A DNA stretch of 7,971 nt from NCBI GenBank assembly GCA_015233515.1, contig JADFXS010000056.1:5094-13064 (forward strand), read 5' to 3'. The notes below the pieces were generated by a model. The model was given only the letters and a program-made list of their open reading frames with translations. It made no database searches and was not told the origin of the DNA. Of this stretch, positions 1,478 through 7,971 are shown one piece after another. Made by a program: the position numbers and the translations under genes. Positions within the stretch are counted from its first letter, which is position 1, and the number at the start of each line of letters is the position of its first letter. This DNA comes from Deltaproteobacteria bacterium (GTDB taxonomy: Bacteria; Desulfobacterota; Desulfarculia; Adiutricales; JAGVGV01).

Positions 1478-3112
1478 ATGTTTTTCGTCTGTTTGGACAG
1501 TAACAAAACACAGGATTATGTTTTTTCTTCAGCACGGTTACGGGGAATTCGTAATGCCAGTCGCCTACTGGAGGATGCTGATCGATCCGCCGAGCAACTG
1601 ATAACGCTTCATCATGGACGTTGTATCAGAGCCTTGGGAGCAGTGATCATAGCTGAATTCGATTCCGATGATGACGCATCGAAATTTGTATCGGAAGCCA
1701 TGGGCACTTATCGTCGACATGGTATTAGCATTGAGGCGGCTAAGATCGAAATTAATAAACCAACAGGTCTAAATTTTTATAAAGACGTTATTACTAAGTT
1801 ACTGCGGGATCTGAGGAAGAAAAAAGACAGCCCGAAAAGCATACAGCCAAACCCACCGAGTACCATCCTGGCTGCCAACTGCGAATTATCCGGCCTTGGT
1901 TCGGCCAATCAACTGGTCAAGCGCGGACCCGAGGTGTGGAGAGCATCATCGATTGAATATAAAAAATGGACCTTACGCGAAGAAGATGAACAGGCGATAA
2001 CGATCCTTCAAAATGTTAGCTCGAAATGGGGCGTAGACTCGGGGGAACTTACCTTTGGATTTCCCAAAACAGAGGAAGGTATTGTCGGCTGGAACACGGA
2101 AGACCTGGAAGACACCAAAGCCAAGCCGGGAAGTTCCGAAGCCCGATTATTGGGCATGATTTTCGCCGACGTCAACGGTTTAGGTGACTTGTTGCCGGAA
2201 ATTGCTGCTGACAAAAATATTTATAAATCCTTTGCGCACGACTTGCGGCAATGCCTGTTTGACAGTGTGGCCCAAGGGGTGGCCGAGGTTTTCCGGCAAG
2301 CCATGCAGGTACGAACCAAAACAGCCTCACACAACTTAGCCCTACCGTTCAGGTTACTTTATCTTGGCGGTGACGATCTCTGCTTTCTGGTCCTGGGGGC
2401 TTACGCCCTACCTCTAATTCATGAAATAATATCAAACTTTGAGCAACGTACCGAACAATTAATAGAATGTGTTCAGAATGAGCTACCTCAAGCGACTTTG
2501 CCTTCTCATTTGACTTTATCCGCCGGGGTGGTTTTGGCGCCTTATAAATATCCAATTTTGTTGTTTCGGCAACTTGGCTTGGAACTGGAAGCACACGCCA
2601 AATTGTGTGGCCGGGCATGGGCAAAACTCCACTCTCGATTAACCGGCACAGAAATATATCCACCAAGTTTAGTGGATTACTATCTAGTTAAAAATAATGC
2701 GGCAGGGGGTTTGGACCAGGTCCGGACGGTTCTAAAAAAGAACGATGTCGATTTATTCGGTGGGCCTTATTGGGCTGGGCTGACCTCTCCAGACAATAAC
2801 AAAAGATTTGAGGGCCTTCCAAAATTATTGAGCGTCGCGGAATCCCTCGCGGATTTTTCCGCCGGCCGAAAATTAAAATTGCTGCCAGCGATTTTAAGTG
2901 GAGACAATGCGCAGCTTCTCTACCAGGATTGGTGGGATCATCTGGATAAGGGCCAACAAGTTATCACCTGGCAAACGGTTTTAAATACGTTGAACCTGCC
3001 AAACGGACGTGATTTGTTGCCGATTGGACCTAATAATATGACCACTATTTTGGACGCCTTGGATATGATTCCCTTGGAGGAACTACGACAGCGTTGGGAG
3101 AAACAACTATGA
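1478..3112 (+). CDS. cas10: Cas10, type III-D, without HD domain, cyclase motif intact
   Basis: Large subunit of a type III effector complex. On binding target RNA, Cas10 proteins of this kind turn ATP into cyclic oligoadenylate, a second messenger for accessory effectors. The 544-residue chain begins directly with the first palm domain (FVCLDSNKTQDYVFSSARLRGIRNASRLL, residues 3-31), with no room for an N-terminal HD nuclease; lack of HD is typical of type III-D. The usual zinc finger between the palms is degenerate: at 134-143 the chain reads NCELSGLGSA, where a CxxCG type motif would be expected and only Cys135 remains. Palm 2 starts with FADVNGLGDLL (residues 229-239, Asp231 a likely metal ligand) and carries GGDD at residues 297-300 (bases 2366-2377). 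SAGVVLAPYKYPI (348-360) and the helix ending in EAHAK (371-375) also follow the family pattern. A C-terminal helical part of about 150 residues follows. The stop overlaps the next start as ATGA. I expect cyclase activity but no DNA cleavage. Confidence 0.92.
   Translation: MFFVCLDSNKTQDYVFSSARLRGIRNASRLLEDADRSAEQLITLHHGRCIRALGAVIIAEFDSDDDASKFVSEAMGTYRRHGISIEAAKIEINKPTGLNFYKDVITKLLRDLRKKKDSPKSIQPNPPSTILAANCELSGLGSANQLVKRGPEVWRASSIEYKKWTLREEDEQAITILQNVSSKWGVDSGELTFGFPKTEEGIVGWNTEDLEDTKAKPGSSEARLLGMIFADVNGLGDLLPEIAADKNIYKSFAHDLRQCLFDSVAQGVAEVFRQAMQVRTKTASHNLALPFRLLYLGGDDLCFLVLGAYALPLIHEIISNFEQRTEQLIECVQNELPQATLPSHLTLSAGVVLAPYKYPILLFRQLGLELEAHAKLCGRAWAKLHSRLTGTEIYPPSLVDYYLVKNNAAGGLDQVRTVLKKNDVDLFGGPYWAGLTSPDNNKRFEGLPKLLSVAESLADFSAGRKLKLLPAILSGDNAQLLYQDWWDHLDKGQQVITWQTVLNTLNLPNGRDLLPIGPNNMTTILDALDMIPLEELRQRWEKQL
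3096..3100 (+). promoter_or_regulatory. Ribosome binding site of cas7 (decides the start)
   Basis: GGGAG lies 8 bases before ATG 3109. This favours the ATG that overlaps the cas10 stop over the TTG at 3094, which would lie upstream of its own binding site. Confidence 0.7.
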
Positions 3113-3822
3113 CCATCAGCTATGCCCTGGACGTGAAAGCGCCTCTAATGGTAAGCGATGGAGCCAGCGCCGGCGGTCCATTTGATCGTCTAACCGTGTT
3201 GGAGAACGATCTCCCGTATGTCCCGGCTAGCTCCATCCGGGGGTGCGTGAAGGCGACTTTAAAAAAACTGATTTCCGACGCCCTCGGTCGATGGCCTAAG
3301 TTATGGACCTGTCATAATGGAGACAGCGCCTGTTCATCGCAAGCTTCCATAGACCAAAGATGTCCTCTATGCCGAATTTTCGGTGCACCCGGAAGTATCC
3401 AGCGAGGGTTCACTTTTTCCGGGGCTTATTACTCTAACGAGGCTCGACTTCATATTGAACAGGCCTTTCCAGGGCGCCAGGCAATAACCGTCAATATAGT
3501 GCGTCGTGTCAGGAATAAATATGATGTTCACCTCAGGCGAGCCAGAGAAGACCATCTTTTCGTGGATGGTGTCGCCGCTTTCATGTCCAGCCTGTCCGGG
3601 ACCATCCAGGAATCTCCAGTTCACGCTTCTTATCCTGCCGACATCAGGGATTTTGATTTGTCTTTCCTTCTGCTGGGCCTACGACTGACGACCAGATTAG
3701 GCGCCGGTCGAAACCGTGGTTACGGTTATGCCAATTTTGTTCTATCGCAACCTATGGATTGGCAGAACAAAATAAAGTTTTTTACCGATAGCTGGAACAC
3801 CGGCATAGCGGGAGGAAGCTGA
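3109..3822 (+). CDS. cas7: Cas7 (Csm3-like RAMP) backbone subunit, type III-D
   Basis: RAMP-fold protein that should bind the crRNA spacer and cut target RNA. Of its 237 residues, 8-24 form the first strand and loop. Then comes FDRLTVLENDLPYVPASSIRGCVKATL (25-51), which matches the Csm3 block ending in PYIPGSSLKG. Asp26 (bases 3184-3186) falls where the catalytic Asp of Csm3 lies and is the candidate cleavage residue. An insertion at 68-88 has four cysteines spaced CX6CX9CX2C (Cys68, 75, 85, 88), ending CPLCRIFG, a likely zinc site. The segment RRVRNKYDVHLRRAREDHLF is the thumb-like region, and RLGAGRNRGYGYANF (196-210) is the C-terminal glycine-rich loop of RAMP proteins. Start ATG 3109 overlaps the cas10 stop by four bases, so translation is probably coupled. 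One base separates its stop from csx10. Identification as Cas7 is firm; cleavage activity is inferred from the Asp alone. Confidence 0.88.
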   Translation: MTISYALDVKAPLMVSDGASAGGPFDRLTVLENDLPYVPASSIRGCVKATLKKLISDALGRWPKLWTCHNGDSACSSQASIDQRCPLCRIFGAPGSIQRGFTFSGAYYSNEARLHIEQAFPGRQAITVNIVRRVRNKYDVHLRRAREDHLFVDGVAAFMSSLSGTIQESPVHASYPADIRDFDLSFLLLGLRLTTRLGAGRNRGYGYANFVLSQPMDWQNKIKFFTDSWNTGIAGGS

Positions 3823-3823
3823 G

Positions 3824-4993
3824 ATGTGGACTTACTTGGTAACAGCTAAAGTGCTGGACGAAGTCTGTTTGGCTAAACGCGGCTCCGCCGGAAATATTTA
3901 CTACTCTTTTGACTATATACCTGGAACAGCTTGGTGGGCGGCCCTGGCCGCTGCTAGTGGTATTCAAGCGGGACAAGAACCTAGCTCTGAGTTTAAACAG
4001 GTTTTTTATTCCGGTGACATTATATTCAGCCACCTGTATCCACTTGAAAGTTCAAGCAATAGCCGGGCGTTACCTCTGCCTTCATCAGCCCGCACTAGAA
4101 AAAGCCGGCCAGGATTCCTAAATAGCCCTGAAATATATGGGGAAATGACCAATGACTTACGCGAATCGGTTTATCCTCAGGGAGTATGGGACTGGCTTAA
4201 TGACGGCCATCCTTCTACCTATAAAGGTGATTGGCAACCATTCACCGGATGGTATGTGCTCAAGACTATAAATACCAATGGTGACATAAAAGTGGCTAGC
4301 CATTCTATTCTGCGGGGACACACCGATATTTCCGGACCTAGCGGAACATCTTCTCAAGGGTTATTATTTCTGCGCCAAAATATTACTCGCGATCAGAGAT
4401 TTCAGGGGTATCTCCGCATCATGACTCAGGAAGCTTACGATGCCCTTTTATCTTTTTTCAACCCTGATGACTTCAATGACACGCCCTTAATAATTTCCGT
4501 GGGCCGTCAACCTGGTGCTGTATCGTTACGTTTTGAAGCATGGGAAGATGCTCTGCCATGGCGGACGCAGCCCACGGCCGATGAGGGGGATCTGGCCACT
4601 TTGACGGTAACGTTTTTATCCGACACTATCCTGTTGGATCAGCGGCTCCGGGCCTATTCCTACCTGCCCGCGGATGAAATAGCAAAGATTTTAGGAACAG
4701 GTGTCATGGTTGACGGCCCTCAGGTTGGCTTTTCCGCCTTTCGTCAAATTAGTGGATGGAATGGGGCTTATGGACGTCCGAAAGAGATTGACCTGTCCAT
4801 TGCCGCCGGAAGCGCTTTTAATTACATTATAGAATGGCCGTCAGGTTTAAGTCGAGCAGACAAGACCAACCTTCTGCAGTCTTGGCAAAATCGAGGGATA
4901 GGTTGGCGTCGCGCGGAAGGGTACGGGGAAATATACATCAATAATCCATTTCACGATAAATTCAGCCAGGAGCCCGACAATGGTCATGAATGA
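3824..4993 (+). CDS. csx10: Csx10, the Cas5-type RAMP subunit of type III-D
   Basis: Csx10 is the marker RAMP protein of subtype III-D and takes the Cas5 (Csm4/Cmr3) place, holding the 5' handle of the crRNA and contacting Cas10. The 389-residue chain has FDYIPGTAWWAALAAA (29-44), the first RAMP strand-helix block. Next comes SHSILRGHTDISGP with SQGLLFLRQNI (159-187), then GWNGAYGRPKEIDLSIAAGSAFNYI (311-335), which follows the Csx10 pattern of Gly-Trp-Asn, a Pro-Lys/Arg and AxxAGS. The C-terminal glycine loop RGIGWRRAEGYGEIYIN lies at 357-373. The length suits two RAMP-like folds in one chain. The first glycine loop, at 226-231 (VGRQPG), is weak. GGAGG at 3811-3815, 8 bases before ATG 3824, supports the start. 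The 3' end overlaps the next gene by 14 bases. The family call is from motifs read by eye, not from a profile search. Confidence 0.82.
   Translation: MWTYLVTAKVLDEVCLAKRGSAGNIYYSFDYIPGTAWWAALAAASGIQAGQEPSSEFKQVFYSGDIIFSHLYPLESSSNSRALPLPSSARTRKSRPGFLNSPEIYGEMTNDLRESVYPQGVWDWLNDGHPSTYKGDWQPFTGWYVLKTINTNGDIKVASHSILRGHTDISGPSGTSSQGLLFLRQNITRDQRFQGYLRIMTQEAYDALLSFFNPDDFNDTPLIISVGRQPGAVSLRFEAWEDALPWRTQPTADEGDLATLTVTFLSDTILLDQRLRAYSYLPADEIAKILGTGVMVDGPQVGFSAFRQISGWNGAYGRPKEIDLSIAAGSAFNYIIEWPSGLSRADKTNLLQSWQNRGIGWRRAEGYGEIYINNPFHDKFSQEPDNGHE
4968..4972 (+). promoter_or_regulatory. Ribosome binding site of the Cas11-like gene, inside csx10
   Basis: AGGAG lies within the csx10 coding sequence, 7 bases before ATG 4980. 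The second ATG at 4986 would be 13 bases away, so 4980 is the better start. Confidence 0.65.
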
Positions 4994-5468
4994 AGCCTTT
5001 TTTCGCCGAGCCAAGGCCGACATTGAAAGAAGCATTCTTACTCAGGCCAATCCGCGGGAATATTTCGATTTGACGTTCGCCAGCAACGTCGCGCTCATGA
5101 ATAAATTTTTTGATATCTGCAAGGCCGGCCCCAAGGTCCCTTTCCTGGAAATGGTTCAACGCGAATCTCGGGTCAAAAAATGGGTGGACTTTCTAAAACA
5201 TGAACAAACGCGGGCCCATTCAAAATGGAACTCCTCCCAATTAAGCGGACTGCCGGATAGGATTACTAGCTGGTTTGATTCTCTTCAGGCGCCAGATTTG
5301 GCAAATTGCCTAGATTTGATCGTAAGAATGGTGAGCATTGAGATTATCGCCAAGTTAACAAGCGTCGTTCCGGATGCTTGTTTGAATCTTGAGCCTCCAG
5401 AACGGATCAGACTGGGATTACGCGCCTTCCGGACCATGACATGGCGCTTACGGTCAGGAGTTTTATGA
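4980..5468 (+). CDS. Small helical protein, probable Cas11 (Csm2-like) small subunit
   Basis: I do not recognise the 162-residue sequence directly. It looks almost wholly alpha-helical: likely helices at about 4-20, 28-48, 53-80, 92-103, 106-130 and 140-158. It has no signal peptide, membrane segment or catalytic motif, and is rich in Arg and Lys, as in RAKADIERS (10-18), RVKKWVDFLKHEQTRAHSK (64-82) and RIRLGLRAFRTMTWRLR (142-158). Size, helix content and basic character fit a Cas11 small subunit, which stacks along the crRNA and target in type III complexes. No other gene of the window fills this role. Its place, right after csx10 with a 14-base overlap, matches the position of the Cas11 domain in the Cas7-Cas5-Cas11 fusion of type III-Dv. 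Its stop is overlapped by the start of the double Cas7. Being a real gene is near certain from the packing; the Cas11 role is inference. Confidence 0.6.
   Translation: MVMNEAFFRRAKADIERSILTQANPREYFDLTFASNVALMNKFFDICKAGPKVPFLEMVQRESRVKKWVDFLKHEQTRAHSKWNSSQLSGLPDRITSWFDSLQAPDLANCLDLIVRMVSIEIIAKLTSVVPDACLNLEPPERIRLGLRAFRTMTWRLRSGVL
5456..5460 (+). promoter_or_regulatory. Ribosome binding site of the double cas7
   Basis: AGGAG lies 4 bases before ATG 5465 and 7 bases before ATG 5468. The other genes here use 7-8 bases, so 5468 is preferred; 5465 would only add one Met. The ATG at 5441 lies upstream of this site and inside the previous gene, and is unlikely. Confidence 0.65.
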
Positions 5469-7171
5469 TGCAAACTTTTCGAATTACCGGACGCTTGAAA
5501 GCCAGAGGCTTGACTGCTGATTCGGGTGCTCCATTTCATATCGGCGATCCTGACCAATTTAGGGAATATATAGACCGACCTTTGTGGTTGGATGAAGATG
5601 ACCTGCCGGTGCTGACCGGATCATCTATTTGTGGAGTCATGGCCTCCCTGGCGCGGACCGTTCTGCGACTCAAGGGTTGTCCCAAGGGCAGTGAGGAAAA
5701 TGATCCATCATTTATAGCCCTTTTTGGATCATCCCGAGGAAGCGACCAAGGACAGGCCTCTCGCCTGGCTGTCAGGGATGGCCAAACTTCAGGAAATGCT
5801 GGCGGTCATATTTTGGTTAGGGATCGTAATGGCGTAAATCGCGAAAGGGGCAGCGCCGATGACAAACGGCTGTTTCATGAACAGGTTGTGGACGGCGAAT
5901 GGTCCTTTGATCTTGACTTGGAATATCAGGAAACCGGTCCACGAACTGAAAATGAAAGACGGCTTCTAACGGCTAATGATGACCCTGACCTCATGGGCCG
6001 GCTACTCCTCTGGGACGTTTTGAAGATGCTATGTTCCGGATGGACCACCATCGGCGGCCAGGCTGGAATCGGATATGGCCGGGTCATCCTCGAGGATTGT
6101 CGCTTTGCTATTTATGACCGGTCATCACCTCAAGCTGTGTTTGATTATGCCCTGAATCGCTGGGATAGCTTTTCGCAGAACGGGTTTCCAGCTGTTATAC
6201 CCGATGTGGATTTGCCCTCGGGCACTACAGATGGTTCTCTTCAGCTGGAAAGGATTAGATTTTGTTGCCGCCTTCAGCCGTTGGAACCACTTCTGGTCAA
6301 AGCCGGCTATACCAACGAAACTTATAATTATACTGGAGCCCAAAGAGGAAACAACTTGAACCTCGCTCCGTGGCGCGCGGATAATCAAGGCCCGTTTTCG
6401 GTGGATACCGGATTTTGCCTGAACTCTGCGGATAAACCGTATATTCCGGGTTCATCCTTGCGTGGCAGTTTACGATCTTATGTGGAAAGGATAATCCGCA
6501 CCTTAGCCGGTGACGATCGGGCCTGGAACTTGGAACAAGCTCAGGCCCATGGGCAAGAATTCAGCCGGCGGCATGAGTACATCGAAAATGACGTTAATTG
6601 TCTAGTCAGCCGCGTTTTTGGTTTTTCGGGTCTCGGCGGCAGAATTACCTTTTCCGACGCCGTGCCGGTGAACGTGCAAATATTCGAAAATCGACGCAAA
6701 TTGCTAGACCACGTGGCCTTGGACCGCTTCACCGGCGGTGCAGCGGATCAGGCTAAATTTAACTCCAGACCCTATTTCCCGCTTGGTCCCGCTCTGCCCG
6801 ATGAACTCGACGGCAACGGCGACTTGGTTTGCGAGATAGAACTCTTCGATTTTGATGACTGGCACCTTGGTCTAGTGCTGATGATGTTGCGGGACATGAG
6901 ATTAGGGCGGATTTATCTGGGTCATGGCAAAAACAAGGGGTTCGGGAAGGTGCGTTTAGAAGGAGCGACCATTGCAGCCTTAACCGTCGGCTTCAACCCG
7001 ACCGAGCTTAAAAAATTGTCAATCCCAGCTGGTTTTCGAGGCAATGGTCTGCTGGAAACACCGGCCGCGCCGGGCTTGACGGCGCGATTTGACTCCGCGG
7101 TGGTCGCTTGGCGAGGACAATTAGCCTCAGTTTGTTTAACACCGGGGATTACACCGGGAGGGGCCTCATGA
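5468..7171 (+). CDS. Double Cas7 (two fused Csm3-like RAMP units), type III-D
   Basis: One 567-residue chain with two complete Cas7 units, which should supply two adjacent backbone subunits on the crRNA. Unit 1 (about 1-215) has IDRPLWLDEDDLPVLTGSSI (35-54), a thumb region ending KRLFHEQVVDGEWSF (133-147), and the glycine loop TTIGGQAGIGYGRV (193-206). Unit 2 (about 262-500) has VDTGFCLNSADKPYIPGSSL (312-331) followed by RGSLRSYVERI, a thumb reading VALDRFTGGA (416-425), and the loop IYLGHGKNKGFGKVRL (482-497). Asp36 (bases 5573-5575) and Asp313 (bases 6404-6406) both lie 17 residues before the SS of the (P/T)GSS motif. They line up with each other and with Asp26 of the single Cas7, so both units may cut target RNA. 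A tail of about 70 residues after the last loop (498-567), rich in Ala, Gly and Pro near its end, is not explained by the fold. Its stop overlaps csx19 as ATGA. Confidence 0.87.
   Translation: MQTFRITGRLKARGLTADSGAPFHIGDPDQFREYIDRPLWLDEDDLPVLTGSSICGVMASLARTVLRLKGCPKGSEENDPSFIALFGSSRGSDQGQASRLAVRDGQTSGNAGGHILVRDRNGVNRERGSADDKRLFHEQVVDGEWSFDLDLEYQETGPRTENERRLLTANDDPDLMGRLLLWDVLKMLCSGWTTIGGQAGIGYGRVILEDCRFAIYDRSSPQAVFDYALNRWDSFSQNGFPAVIPDVDLPSGTTDGSLQLERIRFCCRLQPLEPLLVKAGYTNETYNYTGAQRGNNLNLAPWRADNQGPFSVDTGFCLNSADKPYIPGSSLRGSLRSYVERIIRTLAGDDRAWNLEQAQAHGQEFSRRHEYIENDVNCLVSRVFGFSGLGGRITFSDAVPVNVQIFENRRKLLDHVALDRFTGGAADQAKFNSRPYFPLGPALPDELDGNGDLVCEIELFDFDDWHLGLVLMMLRDMRLGRIYLGHGKNKGFGKVRLEGATIAALTVGFNPTELKKLSIPAGFRGNGLLETPAAPGLTARFDSAVVAWRGQLASVCLTPGITPGGAS
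7156..7163 (+). promoter_or_regulatory. Ribosome binding site of csx19 (decides the start)
   Basis: GGGAGGGG lies just before ATG 7168, with its GGAG core 7 bases away. The longer reading from TTG 7108 overlaps the double cas7 by 64 bases and is not needed. Confidence 0.7.
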
Positions 7172-7780: not shown

Positions 7781-7971
7781 ATGCCGTTCATCTATCCATA
7801 TAATTTTGTCCCACCGGCTGACCACCCCCCTCGGAATTCGGATCAACCAAAAGAACAGGGACGCATCGGCTCTTTCCGCCGCTTTCAGCCTTTGGATCGC
7901 CATGGCCGATGGACGGGTCGGATCGAATTCACTCTAACAAATTTAAGTCCTTTATTTATCCCTGATCCACA
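7781..7971 (+). CDS. TIGR03986-type CRISPR RAMP protein, N-terminus only (3' partial)
   Basis: Only the first 63 codons are in the window. The N-terminus reads FIYPYNFVPPADHPP (3-17), then GRIGSFRRF (27-35), then WTGRIEFTLTNLSPLFIPDP (44-63). A start with YNFVP, followed by SGRI and a beta strand ending in a TPL(F/L)I-like turn, is what I associate with the TIGR03986 family of large CRISPR RAMP proteins. SPLFIPDP would be the end of the first RAMP strand. In III-Dv complexes a Cas7 unit with a large insertion forms one backbone position, and this gene is the natural candidate for it here, but the body of the gene lies outside the window. The start is fixed by AAGGAG at 7768-7773. The call is based on a short stretch and on context. 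Confidence 0.72.
   Translation, partial: MPFIYPYNFVPPADHPPRNSDQPKEQGRIGSFRRFQPLDRHGRWTGRIEFTLTNLSPLFIPDP

Follow-up and report, generated by a model that had tools for sequence, protein, structure and literature searches.

A type III-D effector operon with a fused double Cas7 and separate cas7, csx10 and cas11-like genes

Introduction

The best described relative of the operon treated here is the type III-Dv CRISPR system. According to the published account (PMC11026444) assembly of the III-Dv complex needs Csx19, and the catalytic aspartates are reported as D26, D33 and D246. The same paper describes that the gene order of III-D1 is kept in III-Dv and presents III-Dv as an intermediate towards III-E. 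The transition from many-part to few-part CRISPR machines has so far been argued mainly from the end points III-D1, III-Dv and III-E. In our literature searches we found no paper on a half-fused stage or on the order of the fusions; Makarova 2020 and Ozcan 2021 lay outside their coverage and may show such loci. Here we analyze a stretch of 7,971 nucleotides of a Deltaproteobacteria bacterium (contig JADFXS010000056.1, positions 5,094 to 13,064), in the following called the window. It probably carries the greater part of a type III-D effector operon in which the fusion of subunits has not advanced far, in a lineage which has kept this early stage.

Results

The + strand of the window contains six complete operon genes and one cut gene, running from cas10 through a cas7 of the TIGR03986 family (aa, amino acids):

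1478..3112, + strand: cas10, 544 aa; PADLOC Cas10 2.8e-43, PF22335
3109..3822, + strand: cas7, 237 aa; RAMP PF03787 1.4e-11
3824..4993, + strand: csx10 / cas5, single domain, 389 aa; TIGR02674 1.4e-20, PADLOC Cas5_IIId 1.3e-26
4980..5468, + strand: cas11-like gene, small helical protein by predicted fold, 162 aa
5465..7171, + strand: Cas7-2x, a fusion of two Cas7 domains (about 5465-6247 and 6248-7168); PADLOC Cas7_IIId PDLC02115
7168..7758, + strand: csx19 homologue, 196 aa; PADLOC Csx19 E 0.022 and hhalign bridge
7781..7971, + strand: start of a TIGR03986 cas7 (Cas7-insertion), 63 aa, cut by the window end; TIGR03986 1.7e-6

The junctions among the six complete genes are, in order, -4, +1, -14, -4 and -4 bases. 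The 1-base gap between cas7 and csx10 and the 14-base overlap of csx10 with the small gene agree exactly with the original prediction, which had been made from the letters of the window and had compared this order to the domain order of the III-Dv fusion protein. Its statement that only the double Cas7 is fused stands for the complete genes and leaves aside the last cas7, which is incomplete at the window end. With cas10 and a csx10-type cas5 the window has the two genes required of type III-D, even though the match to TIGR02674, the family of III-D Csx10 (73.9 bits), lies below the family cut-off of 177.3 bits.

At E<=0.001 the III-Dv Cas10 (8s9t_C, 1.3e-9) was the sole match of the window Cas10 in the PDB. 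The protein has the GGDD cyclase motif, and an HD dipeptide was not found in its first 200 residues (most Cas10 analyses took the start at 1490, four codons short of 1478). D26 of the window Cas7 aligns with the catalytic D26 in the Cas7 domain of the III-Dv Cas7-Cas5-Cas11 chain, and judged by this alignment the window cas7 is the predicted counterpart of that domain. The Cas7-2x protein matches PADLOC Cas7_IIId PDLC02115 over residues 22-507 (3.4e-47) as well as the III-Dv Cas7-2x (8s9t_D, phmmer, 1.3e-11), and its D37 and D314 align with the catalytic D33 and D246. A catalytic aspartate is hence kept in the Cas7 domains at all three III-Dv columns, as would be expected of a complex cleaving target RNA.

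The small gene had no match in Pfam, NCBIfam or PADLOC at E 1. A search with the protein at E<=0.001 gave one relative besides itself, and a profile search at E<=0.01 gave seven proteins including itself, all of 154-164 aa. Free-standing counterparts occupy the same operon slot in three related loci (L001, L002 and L036). Because of these relatives, their uniform lengths and the same-slot counterparts we conclude that the gene is real. The AlphaFold2 model consists of helices only (predicted local distance difference test, pLDDT, 89.8; predicted template modelling score, pTM, 0.87), and its top match with VIA-align are residues 624-776 of 8s9x chain A, with which the III-Dv fusion protein ends. 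The modelled helical fold thus supports the proposal that the small protein is Cas11-like. Other routes gave little: Foldseek alone found no fold for the model (best E 2.5 among the best 50 of 125 matches at E<=10), the profile had a single match among the PDB sequences (hypothetical protein MG027, E 0.03), and sequence profiles did not link the Cas11 sets, the best value being 32% between two extended-Csx10 sets and at most 0.7% for the window set.

For the csx19 homologue the direct family match is weak. In hhalign comparisons the window set was linked with 94.6% to the set from unfused loci, the unfused set with 85.5% to the III-Dv Csx19 and the merged sets with 74.1% to III-Dv; the direct comparison of the window set with III-Dv stayed below the 1.5% print limit, as did every control pair. 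The gene, of a kind often present in III-D, is therefore assigned as a putative csx19 solely through this profile bridge. A structure model of the protein was discarded (pLDDT 35).

The window holds 63 codons of the last cas7, and the full-length counterparts measure 728 aa (L001) and 642 aa (L002). A large Cas7 insertion is present in L001, L002 and L036. Its span was taken by subtraction as the distance from the first to the last motif in the 19 of 24 last-cas7 proteins with both motifs (left out were L037, L040, L056, L058 and L060). The span is 198 and 169 aa in two of the four proteins from fully unfused loci and 362-513 aa in all 17 proteins with both motifs from the 20 of the fused states (states A and B to D below). 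In L058 (11703-13331) the TIGR03986 Cas7 has 542 aa, and the last motif was not found; the protein is possibly shortened.

Four fusion states were distinguished among the loci. All genes are separate in state A (L004, L037, L039 and L040). State B has a fused Cas7-2x with separate cas7, csx10 and small gene (the window, L001, L002, L036 and L038). In state C, comprising 18 loci (L003, L041-L052 and L056-L060), cas7 is separate and Csx10 has 478-565 aa owing to a C-terminal extension, which amounts to 160-174 aa in five listed loci; this csx10 ends at most 9 bases ahead of Cas7-2x with no separate small gene between, and we infer from place and size that the extension is Cas11. Of the 16 listed relatives of the window Csx10 the best 10 have 350-388 aa. 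In state D (L006 and L055) Cas7, Cas5 and Cas11 form one chain. Wherever they were found, the parts follow one and the same order; the exceptions are L004, which has further genes in between, and L049, whose last cas7 (12803-14581) runs against the direction of the other operon genes. These data support a gene order that is largely fixed while the fusion varies.

A second locus of Ca. Desantisbacteria (L053, 5189-9707), near a contig end, encodes a 634-aa Cas7-Cas5 fusion without Cas11, which is a different fusion route; the GGDD pattern was not found in its Cas10. With the III-I effector profile NF049957 the Cas7-2x of L038 (4136-5641) came out on top of 11 proteins with 77.3 bits (window, 34.8 bits), so that the lineage may be relevant to how III-I arose.

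The states were then mapped on unrooted trees. The Cas10 tree covers 30 loci with five states, mostly from Nitrospirota and cyanobacterial plasmids; L005 with its broken csx10 and L054, where no parts were found, were left out. It explains the five states with four changes, which is the minimum and was reached in none of 200 shuffles (mean 11.5). A concatenation of six parts (29 loci, 2160 columns, L053 left out) needs three changes for four states as compared to a shuffled mean of 10.5; 13 of its 29 rows have an unusual letter make-up. Its order is state A, then the window clade (the window, L001, L002 and L036), then L038, then states C and D as sisters, with between-state branches of 97-100. 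The single trees of Cas5, Cas7-insertion (window left out) and Cas7a likewise require three changes each, so that the minimum is found in all five trees counted, but in these three L038 and the window clade take other positions. In the Cas10 tree as well as in the concatenation the window clade stands between the III-D1-like loci, in which nothing is fused, and the extended-Csx10 and III-Dv loci, in which more is fused, and to this extent the original prediction is supported.

Alternative topologies of the concatenation were judged by approximately unbiased tests. Rejected were a grouping of the window clade with L037, L039 and L040 apart from L004 (p 5e-6), an exclusive group of the window clade and III-Dv (p 0.0002), state B as one clade (p 0.015) and the window clade with states C and D apart from L038 (p 0.032); the last two p values are weak because the groups were defined after viewing the tree.

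Window-type operons with a full-length last cas7 are found in L001, L002 and L036, of which L002 and L036 are close to each other in the tree and L001 has a 103-aa open reading frame (ORF) inserted ahead of the last cas7. In the genome collection two loci were found with a Csx10 profile. When whole genomes of the same phyla were searched, 1 of 4 matched for the first locus, namely the genome of the locus itself, and 16 of 395 for the second, again counting the genome of the locus; an order-wide repeat of the search gave 15 of 176 genomes, all known from the earlier search. Plasmid records contributed III-Dv (L006) and a relative (L055), the half-fused L003 and L056-L060, the III-D1-like L004 and the broken locus L005 of a Nostoc plasmid, where csx10 was seen only as a 116-aa fragment (8090-8440) near a Tn3-family transposase. 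No relatives were found with the Csx10 profile in viral contigs or with the III-Dv fusion protein in phage records.

No direct-repeat family indicating a CRISPR array was found within the window, nor did the stretches of L001 and L002 show an array. Arrays flank L036 on both sides (12-812 and 14309-14957), and L038 has one (11984-12726), whose repeat, by eye, is similar to that of L036 taken as reverse complement. Downstream of the operon L002 encodes a 733-aa protein with CARF (Cas_APE2256) and HD-CE domains (9091-11289); a CARF effector was seen in this relative only, at a position beyond the window end. The equivalent region of L001 (15701-17762) has two ORFs and no CARF match. Upstream of the window operon there are a cut nucleoside hydrolase gene (2-628; PF01156, 4.5e-43) and, between it and cas10, a 128-aa ORF (944-1330) without a match in Pfam, NCBIfam or PADLOC.

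Discussion

By homology to the known complexes, Cas7, Cas7-2x and the Cas7-insertion protein would line the CRISPR RNA (crRNA), Csx10 and Csx19 together with Cas10 would hold its base, and the free Cas11 would line the inner side. Target RNA would be cut at the three aspartates D26 of Cas7 and D37 and D314 of Cas7-2x, and Cas10 would make cyclic oligoadenylate for a CARF effector like the one beside the relative's operon. DNA cutting by Cas10 would not be expected without an HD domain. By analogy the free Cas11 may be repeated in a window-type complex, since SsoCsm has five copies and in III-Dv Cas11 is one domain of one chain.

The stage represented by the window would come after the fusion of two Cas7 and the gain of the Cas7 insertion, and before the fusion of Cas5 with Cas11 and the joining of Cas7 to this pair as in III-Dv. 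The window Cas7-2x and that of III-Dv likely go back to the same fusion event. The suggestion that the operon is a living intermediate is borne out insofar as the window clade lies between the unfused and the more fused loci. A widespread stage with separate cas7 and extended Csx10 (18 of 30 loci) intervenes, however, and the grouping with III-Dv alone was rejected, so that the window does not represent the step immediately preceding III-Dv. That gene order came first and fusion later fits the largely fixed order and the varying fusion, and is not new, having been published for the path from III-D1 to III-Dv (PMC11026444).

Going further, one can propose an ordered III-D pathway in which each step occurred once and the order of the genes did not change, beginning with Cas7 to Cas7 together with the insertion, followed by Cas5 to Cas11 and lastly by Cas7 onto Cas5-Cas11. 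The window clade would then be a surviving lineage of the first step, and fusion would have fixed the copy number stepwise. For this wider proposal we consider the chances evenly balanced.

Some results speak against it and for the possibility, unlikely as we think it to be, that the window clade built its own Cas7-2x in parallel to III-Dv and not as a first step towards it. In the Cas7-domain tree (12 named rows left out) the window clade has its first Cas7-2x domain near the cas7a group, the cas7a tree likewise puts the window clade with unfused state A, and Cas10 rooted on III-B (L053, L056 and L060 left out) splits state A plus the window clade from the rest with 84/70. The III-B outgroup sits on a very long branch, and under this rooting the Cas7-2x loci as one clade are not rejected (p 0.359). 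Nor is one clade of all first domains (p 0.355), the second domains form one group, weakly supported with 49/68, and a grouping of the window clade with L037, L039 and L040 apart from L004 was rejected. Moreover, the same loci share the Cas7 insertion, so that two traits would need double origins. The boundary is the same for Cas7-2x and for the insertion, which is an argument from economy for placing the root among the unfused loci.

It is less probable still that the window holds an ordinary III-D1 operon, fusion status following no order and the ladder reflecting thin sampling. There are indeed only 30 loci, mostly from Nitrospirota and cyanobacterial plasmids, and L053 shows yet another fusion. 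But the state changes are minimal in five trees, far from the shuffled means, and the window's Cas7-2x and the insertion of its clade mates are absent from the unfused loci measured.

Quite improbable is secondary splitting, in which a fused ancestor existed and cas7, cas5 and cas11 came apart in the window lineage. Gene splits do occur and the position of the root is not fixed, yet the III-D1-like loci L004, L037, L039 and L040 have the same genes separate, and the window clade adjoins these loci, outside states C and D. An assembly or frameshift artefact dividing a real Cas7-Cas5-Cas11 gene, which overlapping genes in different frames might suggest, is refuted by L001, L002 and L036, where the genes are divided in the same way, and contradicted by the single-domain lengths of the 10 closest listed Csx10 relatives and the seven small-protein rows.

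With the gene order of a known fused system but only two of its subunit genes seen merged, the window operon has the look of a step that survived from the passage of many-part into few-part CRISPR machines. Should the ladder hold, every one of its steps could be purified and compared in living representatives, and the fusion order, the decrease in Cas11 copies and the timing of the Cas7 insertion become directly testable.

Comparison with known systems

In III-E Cas7-11 the order of the domains is Cas7, Cas11, Cas7, Cas7 and Cas7 with insertion. The HVA-DR-TGGA segment of its third Cas7 resembles the second Cas7-2x domain of the window, which had the highest of 10 scores with the corresponding III-E profile (56.8 bits). 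The first-domain profile is led by unfused cas7b rows (55.7 and 50.4) and III-Dv rows (43.9 and 39.5) and gave no match to the window at 0.01, and an unfused locus leads 10 with the last-Cas7 profile (165 bits). As these profile scores disagree by domain, we give no verdict on the link to III-E that had been suggested. A placement of a single DiCas7-11 domain beside the first domain of the window clade looked like long branches meeting, had no starred support and was not used. The III-E profile had no match at E 1e-35 in 395 Nitrospirota genomes, an uninformative result as the controls gave no match either. Described as one chain without Cas10 and without Cas5 (PMC11026444), Cas7-11 differs from the window with its cas10 and separate genes.

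The archaeal type III-D complex SsoCsm (PDB 8bmw) shares with the window separate cas11 and cas5; as described in PMC9945777 it has another gene order, five cas7-like genes and five Cas11 in the complex.

The III-D1-like loci (Allocoleopsis L004 and Nitrospirota L037, L039 and L040), a label which we assigned from gene content, resemble the window in their separate cas7, csx10 and small gene, in the order of parts and in a gene in the csx19 slot. They differ in that two separate cas7 stand in the place of Cas7-2x and the last cas7 is short (368-442 aa), and L004 in addition in its further genes in between. The 18 half-fused III-D loci (Anabaena L003, Planktothrix L059, Photobacterium L056, Nitrospirota L041-L052 and others) share a separate cas7, Cas7-2x and a TIGR03986 Cas7, with the insertion measured in most, and differ by the extended Csx10 of 478-565 aa and by having no separate small gene before Cas7-2x.

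III-Dv of Synechocystis pSYSA (PDB 8s9t-8s9x; PMC11026444) differs from the window in that Cas7, Cas5 and Cas11 are one chain instead of three ORFs, and it stands apart in the tree, joined to the extended-Csx10 group with L038 between. The claim of the same parts list is nevertheless supported by the families, Cas7-2x, the Csx19 bridge and the predicted Cas11 fold: with the published III-Dv system the window has in common a Cas10 with GGDD, Cas7-2x, a putative Csx19 homologue, a TIGR03986 Cas7, the order of the parts and the three catalytic aspartate positions, and its clade mates have the insertion as well.
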